DNA of 64,000 nt from contig NZ_CP039543.1 of the NCBI RefSeq assembly GCF_013085545.1, positions 4,433,322 to 4,497,321 on the forward strand, read 5' to 3'. Below are positions 6,063 to 14,919 of this stretch, one piece after another. Source of the stretch: Oceanidesulfovibrio marinus (GTDB lineage: Bacteria > Desulfobacterota > Desulfovibrionia > Desulfovibrionales > Desulfovibrionaceae). The number at the start of each line of letters is the position of its first letter. Positions within the stretch are counted from its first letter, which is position 1. The notes under the pieces were generated by a model. That model did not search any database, was not told the origin of the DNA, and saw only the letters and a list, made by a program, of their open reading frames with translations. The translations under genes were made by a program, and so were the position numbers.

Positions 6063-7514
6063 CTAGGCGTTTTCTTCGCCCAGCAGGCGGCGGGCGATTT
6101 CCTGGGCGGCCCGGCGTCCGGCGCCCATGGCGGAGATGACGGTAGCGGCGCCGGTCACGATATCGCCGCCGGCAAAGACGTTGGGCATGCTTGTCTCGCC
6201 GGTTTCCTCATCCACCTGCACGTAGCCGCGCGGTGTTTTCTCCAGCTCGGGCGTGGCTTCCAGGAGGATGGGGTTGGGGCCGGTGCCCACGGCGATGATC
6301 GCCATGTCGCAGGCGAGCTCGAAGTAGTCGCCCTCGATGGGGATGGGCCGGCGGCGGCCCGATGCGTCCGGCTCGCCCAGCTCCATGCGTTGCAGCGCCA
6401 CGGAGGTGAGCACGCCCTGGTCGTCGCCCTTGAACTCGATGGGCGAGGAAAGAATCTGCAGCTCCACGCCTTCTTCGATGGCGTGATCCAGCTCTTCCAC
6501 GCGGGCGGGCATTTCGCCTTTGGTGCGGCGGTAGACGATGAACACGTTCTCCGCGCCCAGGCGCTTGGCGGTGCGGGCGGAGTCCATGGCCACGTTGCCG
6601 CCGCCGAACACGGCGACGTTCTTGCCGGCATACGTGGGGGTGTCGGTTTCCGGGAACTTGTAGGCGCGTCCGAGGTTCACGCGGGTCAGGTACTCGTTGG
6701 CCGAGAACACGCCGATGAGGTTCTCGCCGGGAAGGTTCAGGAACTTGGGCAGGCCGGCGCCCACGCCCAGGAATACGGCCTTGTACCCGGCCTCGAACAG
6801 CTCGCTGATGCCAAAGGTCTTGCCGCCGATCCAGTTGGTAAAGAAGTCCACCTCCTGCTCGCGCAGGGCGTCCACTTCCTGGTGTACGATGTCCTTGGGC
6901 AGGCGGAACTCCGGAATGCCGTAGACAAGCACGCCGCCCAGCTCGTGCAGGGCCTCGAACACAGTGACCTTGATGCCGTGGGAGGAGAGGTAGCCGGCGC
7001 AGGTCAGGCTAGAGGGGCCGGAGCCGATGCACGCGACCTTGATATCCTCGTGGATGGGGGCGCAGACCTTGGTTACGCCGACCATGTGGTCGCAGGCGGT
7101 CTGGGCCATGTAGGTGTCAGCCGTGTAGCGTTCCAGCCGGCCGATGGCCACGGGCTCGCCTTTCTTGCCCAGGATGCACGCGCCCTCGCACTGCACTTCC
7201 TGCGGGCAGACGCGACCACACACGGCGGGCAGGCTGTTGGTGCTCTTGATGGCCTCGTAGGCGCCGGGCACGTCGCCCTTTTGCAGAAAGCCGATGAAAT
7301 CCTTGATAGGCACTTCCACGGGGCAGCCCTTGACGCATGCTGGCTTCTTGCACTGGAGGCAGCGCGCGGCCTCGGCCATGGCCTGCTCCTGCGTATAGCC
7401 CAGGGCCACCTCCATGAAATTCGTGATGCGCTCCTGGGGCGGCTGGGTGGGCATGTCCACGCGCGGCGCCGCGGGCTTCTTCGTCTTCCTGGGGGTTTCC
7501 TCGCTATTGGCCAT
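6063..7514 (-). CDS. nfnB: NADPH-dependent GltD-like flavoprotein, NfnB subunit type
   Basis: A 483-residue protein of the glutamate synthase small subunit/NfnB/SudA family. The N-terminal iron-sulfur region has CLQCKKPACVKGCP (residues about 52-65) and CGRVCPQEVQCEGAC. An FAD Rossmann motif (ACIGSGPSSLTCAGYL) and an NADPH Rossmann motif (VAVFGGGNVAMDSART) follow, and the C-terminus has NVFAGGDIVTGAATVI. ATG 7514 was chosen because MANSEET follows a purine-rich ribosome site, whereas the longer extension lies inside the upstream gene. It overlaps nfnA by 11 bp. With NfnA it is expected to bifurcate electrons between NADH, ferredoxin and NADP in the cytoplasm. GltD of glutamate synthase is excluded by the nfnA neighbour and the absence of a large subunit. 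Confidence 0.93.
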   Translation of the reverse strand: MANSEETPRKTKKPAAPRVDMPTQPPQERITNFMEVALGYTQEQAMAEAARCLQCKKPACVKGCPVEVPIKDFIGFLQKGDVPGAYEAIKSTNSLPAVCGRVCPQEVQCEGACILGKKGEPVAIGRLERYTADTYMAQTACDHMVGVTKVCAPIHEDIKVACIGSGPSSLTCAGYLSSHGIKVTVFEALHELGGVLVYGIPEFRLPKDIVHQEVDALREQEVDFFTNWIGGKTFGISELFEAGYKAVFLGVGAGLPKFLNLPGENLIGVFSANEYLTRVNLGRAYKFPETDTPTYAGKNVAVFGGGNVAMDSARTAKRLGAENVFIVYRRTKGEMPARVEELDHAIEEGVELQILSSPIEFKGDDQGVLTSVALQRMELGEPDASGRRRPIPIEGDYFELACDMAIIAVGTGPNPILLEATPELEKTPRGYVQVDEETGETSMPNVFAGGDIVTGAATVISAMGAGRRAAQEIARRLLGEENA

Positions 7515-8361
7515 GGCTCTTCTTCCACTCCTGGTAGGAGATAGCTTCCTGCGGTTTGAACGCGTTGAGCCGCTTGCGCAGCTCATCGAAATCCACCTGA
7601 AGGCCGTCGAACTCCGGGCCGTCCACGCAGGCGAACTTGGTTTCGCCGCCCACGGTGACGCGGCAGGCGCCGCACATGCCCATGCCGTCCACCATGATGG
7701 AGTTGAGGCTCACAGTGGTCTTCACGTTGAAAGGCCGGGCCACGCGCGCCACGGCGGCCATCATGGGCACAGGGCCCACGGCCACCACCTCGCCGATGTC
7801 TGCGTCGCTTTCCAGGCGCTGCTGCAGGATGTCGGTGACAAAGCCCTTGTGGCCGCAACTGCCGTCGTCCGTGCAGACCTCCAGCTCGGGGCAGAAGCTC
7901 TCCAGCTCGTCGCAGAAGAGCAGAAGGTTCTCGCTGCGCGCGCCCACGATGGCGACCACGCGGTTGCCGGCCATGTGGTGGCCCTTGGCGATGTGGTGCA
8001 TGGCCGCGATGCCGGTGCCGCCGCCCACGCAGATGACCGTGCCGATGGGCTCGATGTGCGTGGCTTTGCCCAGCGGACCGCAGAGGTCCAGGATCACGTC
8101 GCCTTCACCGAGCTGTTCGAGGGCGGCCGTGGTCTTGCCCATCACCAGGTAGACGATGGTGATGGTGCCAGCCTCGGTGTCTGTGTCGGCTATGGTCAGG
8201 GGGATACGCTCACCCTCCGGCGCGATGCGGAGGATGACGAAGTTGCCGGGCAGTGCCTTGCGCGCGATGTGCGGCGCGTGGATGACGAGCTTGCTCGTCT
8301 GCCCGGGGATGAGACGTTCCTTGGACAGAATGCGTGCGGGTGGAGCAGCGATCTCTATCAT
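7504..8361 (-). CDS. nfnA: Ferredoxin-NADP reductase-like flavoprotein, NfnA subunit type
   Basis: A 285-residue PyrK/FNR-type subunit. The N-terminal FAD-binding barrel includes GNFVILRIAPEGERIPLTIA. The nucleotide domain has ICVGGGTGIAAMHHIA. A C-terminal [2Fe-2S] cluster region carries GMCGACRVTVGG...FACVDGPEF. ATG 8361 has GGAG seven bases upstream and precedes MIEIAAPPARIL. The 11-bp overlap with nfnB means one transcript and probably coupled translation. The pair corresponds to sulfide dehydrogenase/NADH-dependent ferredoxin:NADP oxidoreductase of anaerobes. An inverted repeat at 8372-8397 lies just before the start. Confidence 0.93.
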   Translation of the reverse strand: MIEIAAPPARILSKERLIPGQTSKLVIHAPHIARKALPGNFVILRIAPEGERIPLTIADTDTEAGTITIVYLVMGKTTAALEQLGEGDVILDLCGPLGKATHIEPIGTVICVGGGTGIAAMHHIAKGHHMAGNRVVAIVGARSENLLLFCDELESFCPELEVCTDDGSCGHKGFVTDILQQRLESDADIGEVVAVGPVPMMAAVARVARPFNVKTTVSLNSIMVDGMGMCGACRVTVGGETKFACVDGPEFDGLQVDFDELRKRLNAFKPQEAISYQEWKKSHGQ

Positions 8362-8371
8362 ATCATCTCCA

Positions 8372-8397
8372 GTACAATGTTCAGGAAAATGTTGTAC
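8372..8397. promoter_or_regulatory. Inverted repeat before nfnA
   Basis: GTACAA-N14-TTGTAC, perfect 6-bp arms, ending 11 bp before the nfnA start codon. It could be a repressor site or a leader hairpin. It does not match the Rex-type TTGTGA/TCACAA sites expected for redox genes. Confidence 0.3.
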
Positions 8398-8510
8398 GGG
8401 CATGCCATGCCCTTGGCAACCATTGATATCTGGGGATATCCGGATACTTGCAATGGACTGCCGGAGTAGGATATAGAAATGTATCCCAAGCTGAAACAGA
8501 CCATACCCTT

Positions 8511-9107
8511 ATGAACGTCGCTTCGTCATCGGCTTACGGCGCCGGGACCACAATTCGGGGAATACGGGCATATGCCCGCCAATCCCCGCGGTTTGGCGCG
8601 TTCGGCCGCAACGACTCTGTCAGCACGACAGGTGACGCGGCACGCCTTGGGACCGCCCTGGCCACGACGGCCGACGAATCTTCGGCATCCGCCAGCGCCA
8701 GCAGCACGCCGCACACCGAGCCCTCTCCGCGCAGCCGGTCCATCGGCTTCCGGATCGGGCCGTTCGCCATCCGCTACACCACAGAAGAACCAGACGTCGC
8801 CCCTGGCGTGAGCTGGGACGATCTGGTCCGCGAAGCCGAGCGCCTCGCCTCGGTCAACACCTCCGCGCCGTACGAGGCCGAGCACGAGGTGGCCGAGCTG
8901 CGCAGCTCCCTGGCCGAGTCGCCTGTGGAACGGCTGACCCGGCGGATGGGCGAGTCCGCGACAGAGCAGCCTGGGCAATCACTCTCCGCGCTGGACGCCG
9001 GCGCGGCGCCCCCTGCGGCCATGCGCAAAGCGGCCGCCGCCTATGCCGACACCGCCTCCCTGAGCCATCGTCCCCAGACCGGCGGCGTGTGGCACTCCGT
9101 GCTCTGA
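8511..9107 (+). CDS. Hypothetical protein, low complexity
   Basis: A 198-residue protein from ATG 8511; a longer form from 8448 is possible but the extension looks non-coding. The first half is rich in Ser, Ala, Thr and Arg. A short conserved-looking segment, SIGFRIGPFAIRYTT, is followed by a helical region (WDDLVREAERLASV, then EHEVAELRSSLAE). There is no signal peptide or membrane span. It is divergent from nfnA. I do not recognise the family; the composition and frame behaviour favour a real gene over a shadow, but the start is weakly supported because there is no clear ribosome site. Confidence 0.6.
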   Translation: MNVASSSAYGAGTTIRGIRAYARQSPRFGAFGRNDSVSTTGDAARLGTALATTADESSASASASSTPHTEPSPRSRSIGFRIGPFAIRYTTEEPDVAPGVSWDDLVREAERLASVNTSAPYEAEHEVAELRSSLAESPVERLTRRMGESATEQPGQSLSALDAGAAPPAAMRKAAAAYADTASLSHRPQTGGVWHSVL

Positions 9108-9471: not shown

Positions 9472-10767
9472 ATGCCCAAGCTGGATGTGAAGCCCACCCC
9501 CGAGTTCAAAAAGGCACTCGAGATAGGCCGTCCGCCCAATGTTGCGACCCTGTTCCCCAACTCCAGCGCGCTCATTGTGAGCGGCAAGGTCATCGACCGC
9601 GCCATGCTCCGGAAGGGCAAGTGTATGACCATTGCGGTCAACGGCCGCAGCTCCTTCGTGGTCCGTGGCGCACTGCGCGGCGCACAGCGCGCCAACGCTG
9701 CAATCGTTCTGGAGATCGCCCGTTCCGAGGGCGGGGCGAATGCCTACTGCCACGTGAACATGTGGAACCTGGCGCAGCATGTGAACCAGATCGTCAACGA
9801 GCTGGGGCTGACCATCCCGGTGGCCATCCACGCCGACCACTACGGCATCAAGAAGCCCGAAGACATGGCCGGCGCCAAGGCCGAGATCCCCTCGCTGTTC
9901 GAGTCAGGGGTCACCTCCATCGCCATCGACGCCTCGCACATGCCGGACGACCAGAACCTGCTGGCCAACATCGAGCTGCGCGACTACGTGCCTTCCTGGG
10001 CCGGGTATGAGACCGAGGTGGGCGAGATCAAGGGCAAGGCTGGTCTGTCCACGCCGGCCGAGGCGCTGTTCCTGATCAAGGGGCTCAACGCCCACGGCAT
10101 CCATCCGGACTGGATCGCCCTGAACAACGGCACCACCCACGGCCTGGAGGCCGAGGGCGAGGGCATTCAGGTGGGGCTCACCCGTGAGATCCACGAGGCC
10201 CTGGCCCCCTACAAGGTATCTGGCGCGCAGCACGGCACCTCTGGCAACAGCTATGAGCGGTTGAAGCAGATTGCCGAGCAGACGCGCACCACCAAGGCCA
10301 ATGTGGCCACGGCCCTGCAGATGGTCTCCTGGGGCGTGAAGGTGAACGAGTACGGCAACGCCCAGCTGGACGCCGACGGCAAGTTCATCAAGGAATCCGG
10401 CAAGGGGCTGGATGACGAGATCTGGAACGAGATGGTGGCCTACGCGGACAAGCAGGGCTGGTCCGGCGGCAACTACAAGAAGCTCAACCTTCCGTTCGAG
10501 TGCCGGCTGCTGGGCCAGTCGCGCGAGATTCGCGAGCGCATGGTCCAGGGCGTGGAGGACTTCGTGGCTTCCCTGCTCACGGACGTTTTCCATGCGGACG
10601 GCACGGCGGAGATCGCCTACGAGCTGATCAACGAGGCCGGCAGCTTCGACCTCGGGGCCAAAGGCGAGAGAATAGAGGACCCGGCCGAGTGGACTCCGGA
10701 GAAGATCCGGGAGCGCGCTGCGGCCATGGATACGGATAAGGGCCCGGAAGGGGACTTTGACGACTAG
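9472..10767 (+). CDS. fba: Class II fructose-1,6-bisphosphate aldolase family protein
   Basis: A 431-residue zinc-dependent aldolase. Zinc/active-site features are IPVAIHADHYG (HxDH motif), IDASHMPDDQNL and GAQHGTSGNS. It would split fructose-1,6-bisphosphate to dihydroxyacetone phosphate and glyceraldehyde-3-phosphate in glycolysis/gluconeogenesis. It is longer than the usual 280-360-residue enzymes, placing it in a longer subfamily I remember from Desulfovibrio and relatives; substrate preference within the family is inference. ATG 9472 has an excellent AAGGAGA site. The next gene starts inside its 3' end. Confidence 0.9.
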   Translation: MPKLDVKPTPEFKKALEIGRPPNVATLFPNSSALIVSGKVIDRAMLRKGKCMTIAVNGRSSFVVRGALRGAQRANAAIVLEIARSEGGANAYCHVNMWNLAQHVNQIVNELGLTIPVAIHADHYGIKKPEDMAGAKAEIPSLFESGVTSIAIDASHMPDDQNLLANIELRDYVPSWAGYETEVGEIKGKAGLSTPAEALFLIKGLNAHGIHPDWIALNNGTTHGLEAEGEGIQVGLTREIHEALAPYKVSGAQHGTSGNSYERLKQIAEQTRTTKANVATALQMVSWGVKVNEYGNAQLDADGKFIKESGKGLDDEIWNEMVAYADKQGWSGGNYKKLNLPFECRLLGQSREIRERMVQGVEDFVASLLTDVFHADGTAEIAYELINEAGSFDLGAKGERIEDPAEWTPEKIRERAAAMDTDKGPEGDFDD

Positions 10768-11152
10768 AACGTCACACGCATCGGCGGAAAGGGCGGCTGT
10801 CCGGTCGCCCGCCGCCGTGTTGGCAGCGCGAGCCGGGGCGGTCCTGCTGTTGGCCGCACTCCTCGGGCTTGCGCTCTGCATGTCTCTCCCTGCCCCTGTT
10901 TCGGCGCAGTACCGCTGTCCGGATGGAACCTACTGGCGCTCCGGACGCTGCCGCTCGGAAGAACCGTATCCCTACAACCGGTCCGAGGTGTACCGTGAAC
11001 GGCTCTGCCTCGGTCCGTACAATTACTGCGCGGCCGTGTGCCGCCAGGGATATGTGACCTCCGGCTCCAGCGCATTCCGCGTCTGTATGGACCAATGCGC
11101 GGAGCGGTACGCGGCCTGCGAGGCCGCGCCGCCGGAGCTGGGGGCACAGTGA
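10757..11152 (+). CDS. Exported Cys-rich protein with twin CX3C motif (copy 1)
   Basis: A 131-residue protein. TTG 10757 is preferred because GGAAGGGG lies five bases upstream; it overlaps the aldolase stop by 11 bp. A signal peptide spans about residues 20-50 (hydrophobic LLLAALLGLALCMSL, cleavage near VSAQ). The mature part starts with CPDGTYWRSGRC and ends with six cysteines spaced C-x6-C-x3-C-x14-C-x3-C-x6-C. The next gene has exactly the same spacing, so the two are paralogues. The twin CX3C arrangement suggests a disulfide-locked helical hairpin in the periplasm. Function unknown. Confidence 0.8.
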   Translation: MTTRTSHASAERAAVRSPAAVLAARAGAVLLLAALLGLALCMSLPAPVSAQYRCPDGTYWRSGRCRSEEPYPYNRSEVYRERLCLGPYNYCAAVCRQGYVTSGSSAFRVCMDQCAERYAACEAAPPELGAQ

Positions 11153-11177
11153 CGGGCGCAACGCCCAGGGAGAAATC

Positions 11178-11516
11178 ATGCGAACAGTCCGCTCCTATAT
11201 TGTAATCGCAGTCGCGCTGCTCGTCCTCAGTCTGTTGGCGAGCGCGCCGGCCGATGCACGACGACACCACCACCGCTGCCCGCCGGGCTATACTTTCTAC
11301 GCCGGCCAGTGCGTGCCGGCAGCGCCGTACGGCTACTACGGCCGATGGGGACCCTACGGCCCGCGCTACCCCGACAATAACCGCGCCGCAGGCTGCTCTC
11401 CCTCACTGTTGCTTTGCCAGCAGCAGTGCGAAGCCATGCGGCGCAAGATGGACCCGCTGGCCTACGCCCAATGCCGGCAGAATTGCCAGATAGGCTACGA
11501 GTCCTGCGTGTACTGA
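11178..11516 (+). CDS. Exported Cys-rich protein with twin CX3C motif (copy 2)
   Basis: A 112-residue protein with a GGGAGA site before ATG 11178. The signal peptide is clear (VIAVALLVLSLLASAPADA, cleavage near residue 27). The mature chain starts with RRHHHRCPPGYTFYAGQC, has a Tyr/Gly/Pro-rich stretch, then six cysteines with spacing identical to the preceding gene, from GCSPSLLLC to YESCVY. The His cluster and cysteines could bind metal, but this is inference. It lies 25 bp after copy 1 and is followed by a strong terminator, so the aldolase and both exported genes may be one transcript. Confidence 0.85.
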   Translation: MRTVRSYIVIAVALLVLSLLASAPADARRHHHRCPPGYTFYAGQCVPAAPYGYYGRWGPYGPRYPDNNRAAGCSPSLLLCQQQCEAMRRKMDPLAYAQCRQNCQIGYESCVY

Positions 11517-11547
11517 CGCCGGCGGCAGCCATTCCGGAAGTACAGAG

Positions 11548-11577
11548 CGCCCCCGAGAATTTTCGGGGGCGTTTTTT
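11548..11577 (+). terminator. Rho-independent terminator
   Basis: Perfect 9-bp stem CGCCCCCGA/TCGGGGGCG with a six-base loop, followed by six T. It ends the aldolase/Cys-rich transcript. Confidence 0.92.
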
Positions 11578-11659
11578 CATGACGCATGTTACGATGTGGA
11601 ACGCGTGACAGCACACTGGTCGGACATCATGGCCGGCCCAGATTAAGGAGAATCCGGAG

Positions 11660-12100
11660 ATGAGAAAGAAGACGTCTGGTCGTACGCGTGGGTATTGGAT
11701 CGCACTGTGCGCCATCGCCGCCGTGCTTGTGACGGCCGGCACTGCTCTGGCCTCCGGACCGGACGCCGTGGGCGGAGAGCAGGGAGTGCTGCTGGCGCAG
11801 GTCTCACCGGAGCAGGCCACGCCCCAGGCGCTCGACCTGGTGCAGTCGGTGGAGGACGAGCAGGGTCCCGAGGTTCCTCCAGCAATGCCGCTGGATGACG
11901 ACGACCCCATGTCGCCCCTGAACCCGGAGGAGGACCCCATGTGTGGCCCCGACGAGGTGCCCTACGGCGATAGCTGCCTGCCGCAGCCCGGCGGACCAGG
12001 CGTGCAGCCAATGGCGACCGGCGACTGCCCGGATGGCCACTTCCCGTTCCAGGGCATGTGCCACCCCCTGCCACAGGGGTTCCTGCCGGACGCCCAGTAG
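11660..12100 (+). CDS. Exported acidic/proline-rich protein with CPxG...C motif
   Basis: A 146-residue protein with AAGGAGA upstream of ATG 11660. The signal peptide covers residues about 1-32 (WIALCAIAAVLVTAGTALA). The mature chain is acidic and Pro-rich (PLDDDDPMSPLNPEEDPM) and carries CGPDEVPYGDSC and CPDGHFPFQGMC. The second matches the C-P-x-G-x5-G-x-C pattern at the start of the two preceding exported proteins, so this is a third related secreted protein without the twin CX3C part. It has its own spacing after the terminator at 11577. Function unknown. Confidence 0.8.
   Translation: MRKKTSGRTRGYWIALCAIAAVLVTAGTALASGPDAVGGEQGVLLAQVSPEQATPQALDLVQSVEDEQGPEVPPAMPLDDDDPMSPLNPEEDPMCGPDEVPYGDSCLPQPGGPGVQPMATGDCPDGHFPFQGMCHPLPQGFLPDAQ

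Positions 12101-12261: not shown

Positions 12262-14919
<2,658 letters not shown>

Follow-up and report, generated by a model that had tools for sequence, protein, structure and literature searches.

Exported proteins of sulfate-reducing bacteria with a six-cysteine C-terminal domain predicted to form a stapled helical hairpin

The window analysed here, the whole stretch of 64,000 nucleotides, encodes two short exported proteins, A and B, which on balance probably belong to an undescribed family with a stapled helical hairpin at the C-terminus, likely serving as a rigid end-cap in the cell envelope. In sulfate-reducing bacteria and some of their relatives, the six-Cys domain that defines the family forms the end of many exported proteins that otherwise differ from one another.

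Three short genes for exported proteins (window 10757-12100) are located between fba, for a class II fructose-bisphosphate aldolase (9472-10767, plus strand; PF01116, E 1.6e-23), and alaS, for alanyl-tRNA synthetase (12262-14919, minus strand; PF01411, E 2.1e-210). Gene A (10757-11152, plus strand) starts with a TTG codon inside the last codons of fba, with an overlap of 11 nt with the 3' end of that gene, and is followed after 25 nt by gene B (11178-11516, plus strand), which starts with ATG. Signal peptides were recognised by eye up to approximately residue 50 in A and residue 27 in B. A stem-loop and T run located 3' of gene B (11544-11577, plus strand; folding energy -24.4 kcal/mol, z -5.5), absent from the list of the terminator consensus scan, is a probable intrinsic terminator, and gene C follows at 11660-12100 on the plus strand. 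Upstream of fba, two overlapping plus-strand ORFs (7414-8469 and 8448-9107) were without a Pfam match at E 1. The congener G001, the single other genome of the genus found in this analysis, has the same gene order, fba-A'-B' (fba recognised by eye), and the same Cys spacings; no counterpart of gene C was seen there between B', which ends at 2282, and an alaS-like frame from 2440 (locus L006).

The translations confirm the sequence-only reading, according to which A and B share the pattern C-x6-C-x3-C-x14-C-x3-C-x6-C at the C-terminus and the motif C-P-x-G-x5-G-x-C after the signal peptide, with the latter repeated in the protein encoded at 11660. The six-Cys domain spans 38 residues, CLGPYNYCAAVCRQGYVTSGSSAFRVCMDQCAERYAAC in A (11006-11119, plus strand) and CSPSLLLCQQQCEAMRRKMDPLAYAQCRQNCQIGYESC in B (11394-11507, plus strand), and was not found in the translation of exported protein C. 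The short motif reads CPDGTYWRSGRC in A (10916-10951, plus strand), CPPGYTFYAGQC in B (11277-11312, plus strand) and CPDGHFPFQGMC in C, which has a second C-x10-C loop, CGPDEVPYGDSC. The CPxG loop is the only part over which BLASTP gave a convincing alignment of A with B (E 0.002), and their hairpins are 20% identical, with little in common except the Cys. Predicted as a beta-hairpin between two Cys (strands E8-11 and E14-17 in the AlphaFold model of A, pLDDT ~70; E10-13 and E16-19 in that of B, pLDDT ~60), the CPxG loop constitutes a second, smaller Cys-bounded module. It can be regarded as a module of its own because an exported protein from another genome (G282, locus L069, ORF at ~1501) joins the loop CPPGHVWRQGRC through a proline tether to a C-terminal domain of another kind, which by eye resembles SH3.

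Searched as single sequences, A and B have almost no relatives beyond the genus. Each gave matches in three of 59 genomes, namely its own, the congener and one other, and the matches in the third genome (L003, L007) were without the six-Cys motif. The matches to a first profile were mostly short and spurious, with two true relatives among the 14 loci read. Profiles built stepwise reached two species of another genus (loop of 15), then g25, g52, g31 and g29, and then g10 and g6. In total, the final profile A12 (27 rows) identified 108 matches at E 0.001 or better in 35 of the 348 genomes of the class, representing 8 of 59 genera, with at most five matches per genome; one carrier, G323, is listed in the same family as the genome of the window. 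Of the six matches that a first search of the phylum (395 genomes) gave in genomes other than that of the window, one (L041) was a true relative; a second search (390 genomes) gave 15 matches and two carriers outside the class, G693 and G479. Eleven of the 15 were not in the profile, and six of these had the full spacing (L081, L082, L089-L092). Among the others, L083 and L087 have a twin CX3C without the full spacing, and L087, with a loop of 6 and C6 but no C1, is probably a chance match; L084 and L086 have neither the full spacing nor the twin CX3C; and L085, a repeat-rich protein with Cys repeats, was left out. Two similar genes on the minus strand of L042 encode dense Cys motifs after a repeated domain of beta type (by eye) and are different from the six-Cys family. 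A scan of genome contigs with short-peptide patterns gave four loci, and no relatives were found in viral contigs or, with one protein as query (L071), in plasmids.

The helical spacings C-x6-C-x3-C and C-x3-C-x6-C are kept in 108 of the 108 profile matches (76 stretches, 30 loci, and B as encoded in G000 and in G001), a test biased towards conservation, since the profile is gapless within the helices and members with altered spacing score worse. Rows of the profile account for 25 of these matches and the other 83 do not belong to it, although the hairpins of some of them are the same as that of a row or almost so. The sequence-only reading had proposed a profile search and named loss of spacing in homologues as the outcome that would speak against it; the x14 loop alone was found to vary, and its suggestion of an exported bacterial twin-CX3C family with exact spacing, worth defining, is borne out by these matches. 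The loop has 5, 11, 12, 13, 14 or 15 residues in the class (among the 76 stretches, 5 in 34, 11 in 21, 12 in 1, 13 in 5, 14 in 8 and 15 in 7) and 16 in G693, outside the class. Elsewhere in the phylum, an exported protein (L083, minus strand 1296-1644), a possible two-rung relative, contains the inner four Cys only (SCVSNCHAVYNQRLRPSEFSQCVDQC), which suggests the existence of variants.

Spurious ORFs are numerous in GC-rich DNA, but the notion that A and B are non-genes or carry a chance pattern is refuted by three lines of evidence, and we consider its probability practically nil. The six-Cys pattern had two matches among the 564 stop-to-stop ORFs of at least 60 amino acids in the window, as compared to none in 300 residue-shuffled windows, and when mature A or B alone was shuffled, the pattern with any loop arose at frequencies of 3e-5 (A) and 1.5e-5 (B). 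The A and B genes are under purifying selection, with dN/dS between the window species and G001 of ~0.22 for A (71 codons) and ~0.10 for the B domain (41 codons). The third line is the spacing kept in every profile match.

We compared 99 distinct hairpins, 72 of which are not rows of the profile; the set was picked by the Cys pattern, and the Cys-repeat proteins L042 and L085 were excluded. The hairpin ends 1-29 residues before the stop codon in 99 of 99 proteins, and a strongly hydrophobic stretch of 12 residues is located upstream of it in 96. A rough pattern sort divided the upstream parts into a YCVKPDG Cys region (25), Gln/Gly/Pro-rich tethers (22), YY-D/E repeats (15), CPxG loops (13), lipobox patterns (13), CRPGRDP (4) and others (7). 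Judged from these sequences, the same C-terminal hairpin is reused behind unlike exported N-terminal parts. Its non-Cys residues are chiefly N, A, Q, R and S, and V/L/I/M/F/W make up 18.5% of them, 11% of the 15 residues before the hairpin and 10% of those after; His is absent from 77 domains and Met from 36. The loop lengths cluster at 5 and at 11-16, with none at 6-10, in a pattern that allowed 4-17. These lengths may fit a turn in which each arm gains one helical turn, in which case a gap at 6-10 would be expected.

No match above cut-off was obtained for A, B or C in Pfam or NCBIfam, and matches in PHROG were weak (E 0.048 and 0.062 for B, and none better than E 0.0097 among all searched). 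Likewise, ten representative full-length members had no Pfam family above cut-off and no NCBIfam family at E 0.01. Calcyon, DUF7772, crustacean neurohormone and PAN_3 were weak Pfam matches, all under the cut-offs where these were shown, and the match of MAP_0585 (NCBIfam) to the Gln-rich L011 was far below the cut-off of that family. Neither a Pfam, NCBIfam or PHROG model for the six-Cys family nor, in the literature searched, a description of a bacterial six-Cys hairpin domain was found. Within these libraries and this literature, the six-Cys hairpin is a real and apparently undescribed domain family.

Structure prediction, another check proposed at the outset, placed two helices over the Cys triplets of both proteins, at residues 25-52 and 54-73 in A (pLDDT ~78-87 over residues 31-70) and 39-58 and 65-83 in B (pLDDT ~67-82); the AlphaFold models rest on six sequences and are of modest confidence, with mean pLDDT of 73.0 for A and 63.6 for B. 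Foldseek gave no match below E 1 with the models. When the Foldseek list was re-examined with VIA, all 39 of 39 residues of the walnut Jug r 2 hairpin were superimposed with the model of A to within 0.7 A and a Z of 6.1, six rows being ranked higher (Z 6.2-6.7), although a Z of ~6 for a helix pair possibly reflects just a common arrangement that unrelated pairs reach as well. The superposition supports an antiparallel hairpin for the model of A. That small Tims do not appear in the VIA list is uninformative. When A12 was compared to the 177,635 sequences of the PDB, seven plant hairpin sequences ranked at the top, followed by TIM13 (E 0.15) and then Jug r 2; the best E was 0.0035, with a score largely derived from the Cys. 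These best matches are plant hairpins stapled by disulfides, namely alpha-hairpinins and hairpins derived from vicilin (VhTI, BWI-2c, VBP-1, Jug r 2; E 0.0035 to 0.34), and luffin P1 was at E 0.51. We claim likeness to these solved hairpins and to TIM13, not kinship, as none of the matches is strong enough for homology.

PMC11591084 describes the core of alpha-hairpinins as CX3C-Xn-CX3C with n of 4-20, and a six-Cys version with x3 outside the core on both sides. All 108 bacterial matches contain the core C-X3-C-X(4-20)-C-X3-C, and the helix-loop-helix fold is predicted, with modest confidence, for A and B; the outer spacing, however, is x6 on both sides in 108 of 108 matches, as compared to x3 in the plant six-Cys motif. 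The family further differs from the plant peptides, which have two nested disulfides, in being bacterial, in its third, outer Cys pair and in its position at the end of larger exported proteins. Small Tims (Tim8/9/10/13) have in common with A and B the twin CX3C, and in PMC3759932 they are described as helix-loop-helix proteins with C1-C4 and C2-C3 disulfides. They are hexameric chaperones of the mitochondrial intermembrane space, imported through the MIA pathway, whereas A and B are bacterial with signal peptides recognised by eye, an extra outer Cys pair and a polar, N/Q-rich hairpin at the C-terminus. The analogy to small Tims drawn in the sequence-only reading stands for the twin CX3C and the two predicted helices, and is not supported for kinship or function: no zf-Tim10 match was listed for 21 members (weak matches being filtered out), TIM13 ranked behind seven plant hairpins, and the domain is polar and C-terminal. 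As far as the models tell, the analogy would be valid for shape alone. A further twin-CX3C protein, compared by description only, is FAM136A, a mitochondrial, MIA40-dependent protein with two such motifs that, according to PMC12557607, are oxidised after transport.

There is good support for the predicted working of the domain, like that of a hairpin stapled by disulfides but with a third rung. By helical geometry, the Cys of each helix would lie on one face, at 0, 340 and 20 degrees in one and 0, 40 and 20 degrees in the other. Given this and the mirrored spacing, 7 then 4 on the way in and 4 then 7 on the way out, C3-C4, C2-C5 and C1-C6 would oppose each other as three rungs, which most simply would be three disulfides formed after export. 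The hairpin would then be a rigid, protease-resistant end-cap or docking knob, not an enzyme, located in the periplasm or on the outer membrane and held there by a lipid anchor or at the tip of a flexible Pro/Gln/Gly-rich tether. No gene neighbourhood was common to the five other loci looked at, where the Pfam-matched neighbours are a Der-type GTPase; a lipid A acyltransferase and an ABC transporter; TerC; an HD domain; and a response regulator. The reuse of the domain behind unlike exported proteins and the unlike neighbours suggest a generic role as cap or docking knob.

The main alternative to three disulfides, rather unlikely in our view but to be taken seriously, is that in these anaerobes, which produce sulfide, the six Cys remain in the reduced state and serve to bind metal (Cu(I), Zn(II) or Fe) or sulfur, in a manner comparable to copper-storage proteins. 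No DsbB or VKOR match was found in the genome of the window, and 17 of the 19 carriers tested, out of 37 known, have neither, while G693 has VKOR and G031 has DsbB. The absence of these oxidases from most tested carriers speaks for the reduced metal- or sulfur-binding state; it may be a trait of the lineage, in a tally that covers carriers alone. To our knowledge, many anaerobes are without DsbB and VKOR. Cys on one face would suit a metal site equally well as disulfides, and Cys line the helices in copper-storage proteins. Some members of the TerC family, to which one neighbour belongs, are metal transporters. Moreover, reduced twin-CX3C small Tims can bind zinc according to PMC3759932. Csp1, as presented in PMC7558416, is an exported, Cys-rich helical protein with a Tat signal that holds 13 Cu(I) in a four-helix bundle; the bacterial hairpin, by comparison, has two short predicted helices and six Cys, not a four-helix bundle with many Cys in one chain. 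The mirror symmetry and variable loop instead favour cross-helix pairs, most domains are without His and over a third without Met (77 and 36 of 99), no metal-handling neighbour is common to the loci looked at, and a DsbA-like lipoprotein with a CPYC motif is encoded in the window's genome (G000:C1:1902433-1902921; L093:1222-2085), where DsbB and VKOR matches are absent.

A mobile three-rung Cys ladder is also conceivable, with rungs made or modified by the sulfur chemistry of the organisms themselves (sulfide, polysulfide or a DsbA partner); the domain would then be a sulfur- or redox-sensing or -storing switch and not a plain staple. We regard this as a speculative and distinctly unlikely reading; if true, such a ladder would sit at the end of dozens of envelope proteins in sulfate reducers that mostly are without DsbB and VKOR. 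That the proteins are secreted defence peptides or protease inhibitors, like the plant alpha-hairpinins, is very unlikely, even though the trypsin inhibitors VhTI and BWI-2c and the vicilin-derived hairpins are the closest solved profile matches: 13 of the 99 proteins have a lipobox pattern and others have long tethers, so that they would remain on the producer, and no immunity-like neighbour was seen among the few neighbours scanned. The twin CX3C, the two predicted helices and the profile match to TIM13 are in line with a periplasmic chaperone of small-Tim type whose clients would be hydrophobic or outer-membrane proteins, but this function is highly improbable for a C-terminal domain with mostly N, A, Q, R and S at its non-Cys positions, flanks poor in V/L/I/M/F/W (10-11%) and as many as five matches in one genome, preceded by N-terminal parts that differ.

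The disulfide-stapled end-cap, which we favour, would extend the few stapled helical hairpins known from plants and mitochondria by a bacterial one with three rungs. It also gives many exported proteins without annotation, in the family to which Solidesulfovibrio belongs, a domain that can be tested, and raises the sharp question of how, or if at all, disulfides form from six conserved Cys in the periplasm of anaerobes that produce sulfide and are without the usual oxidases.
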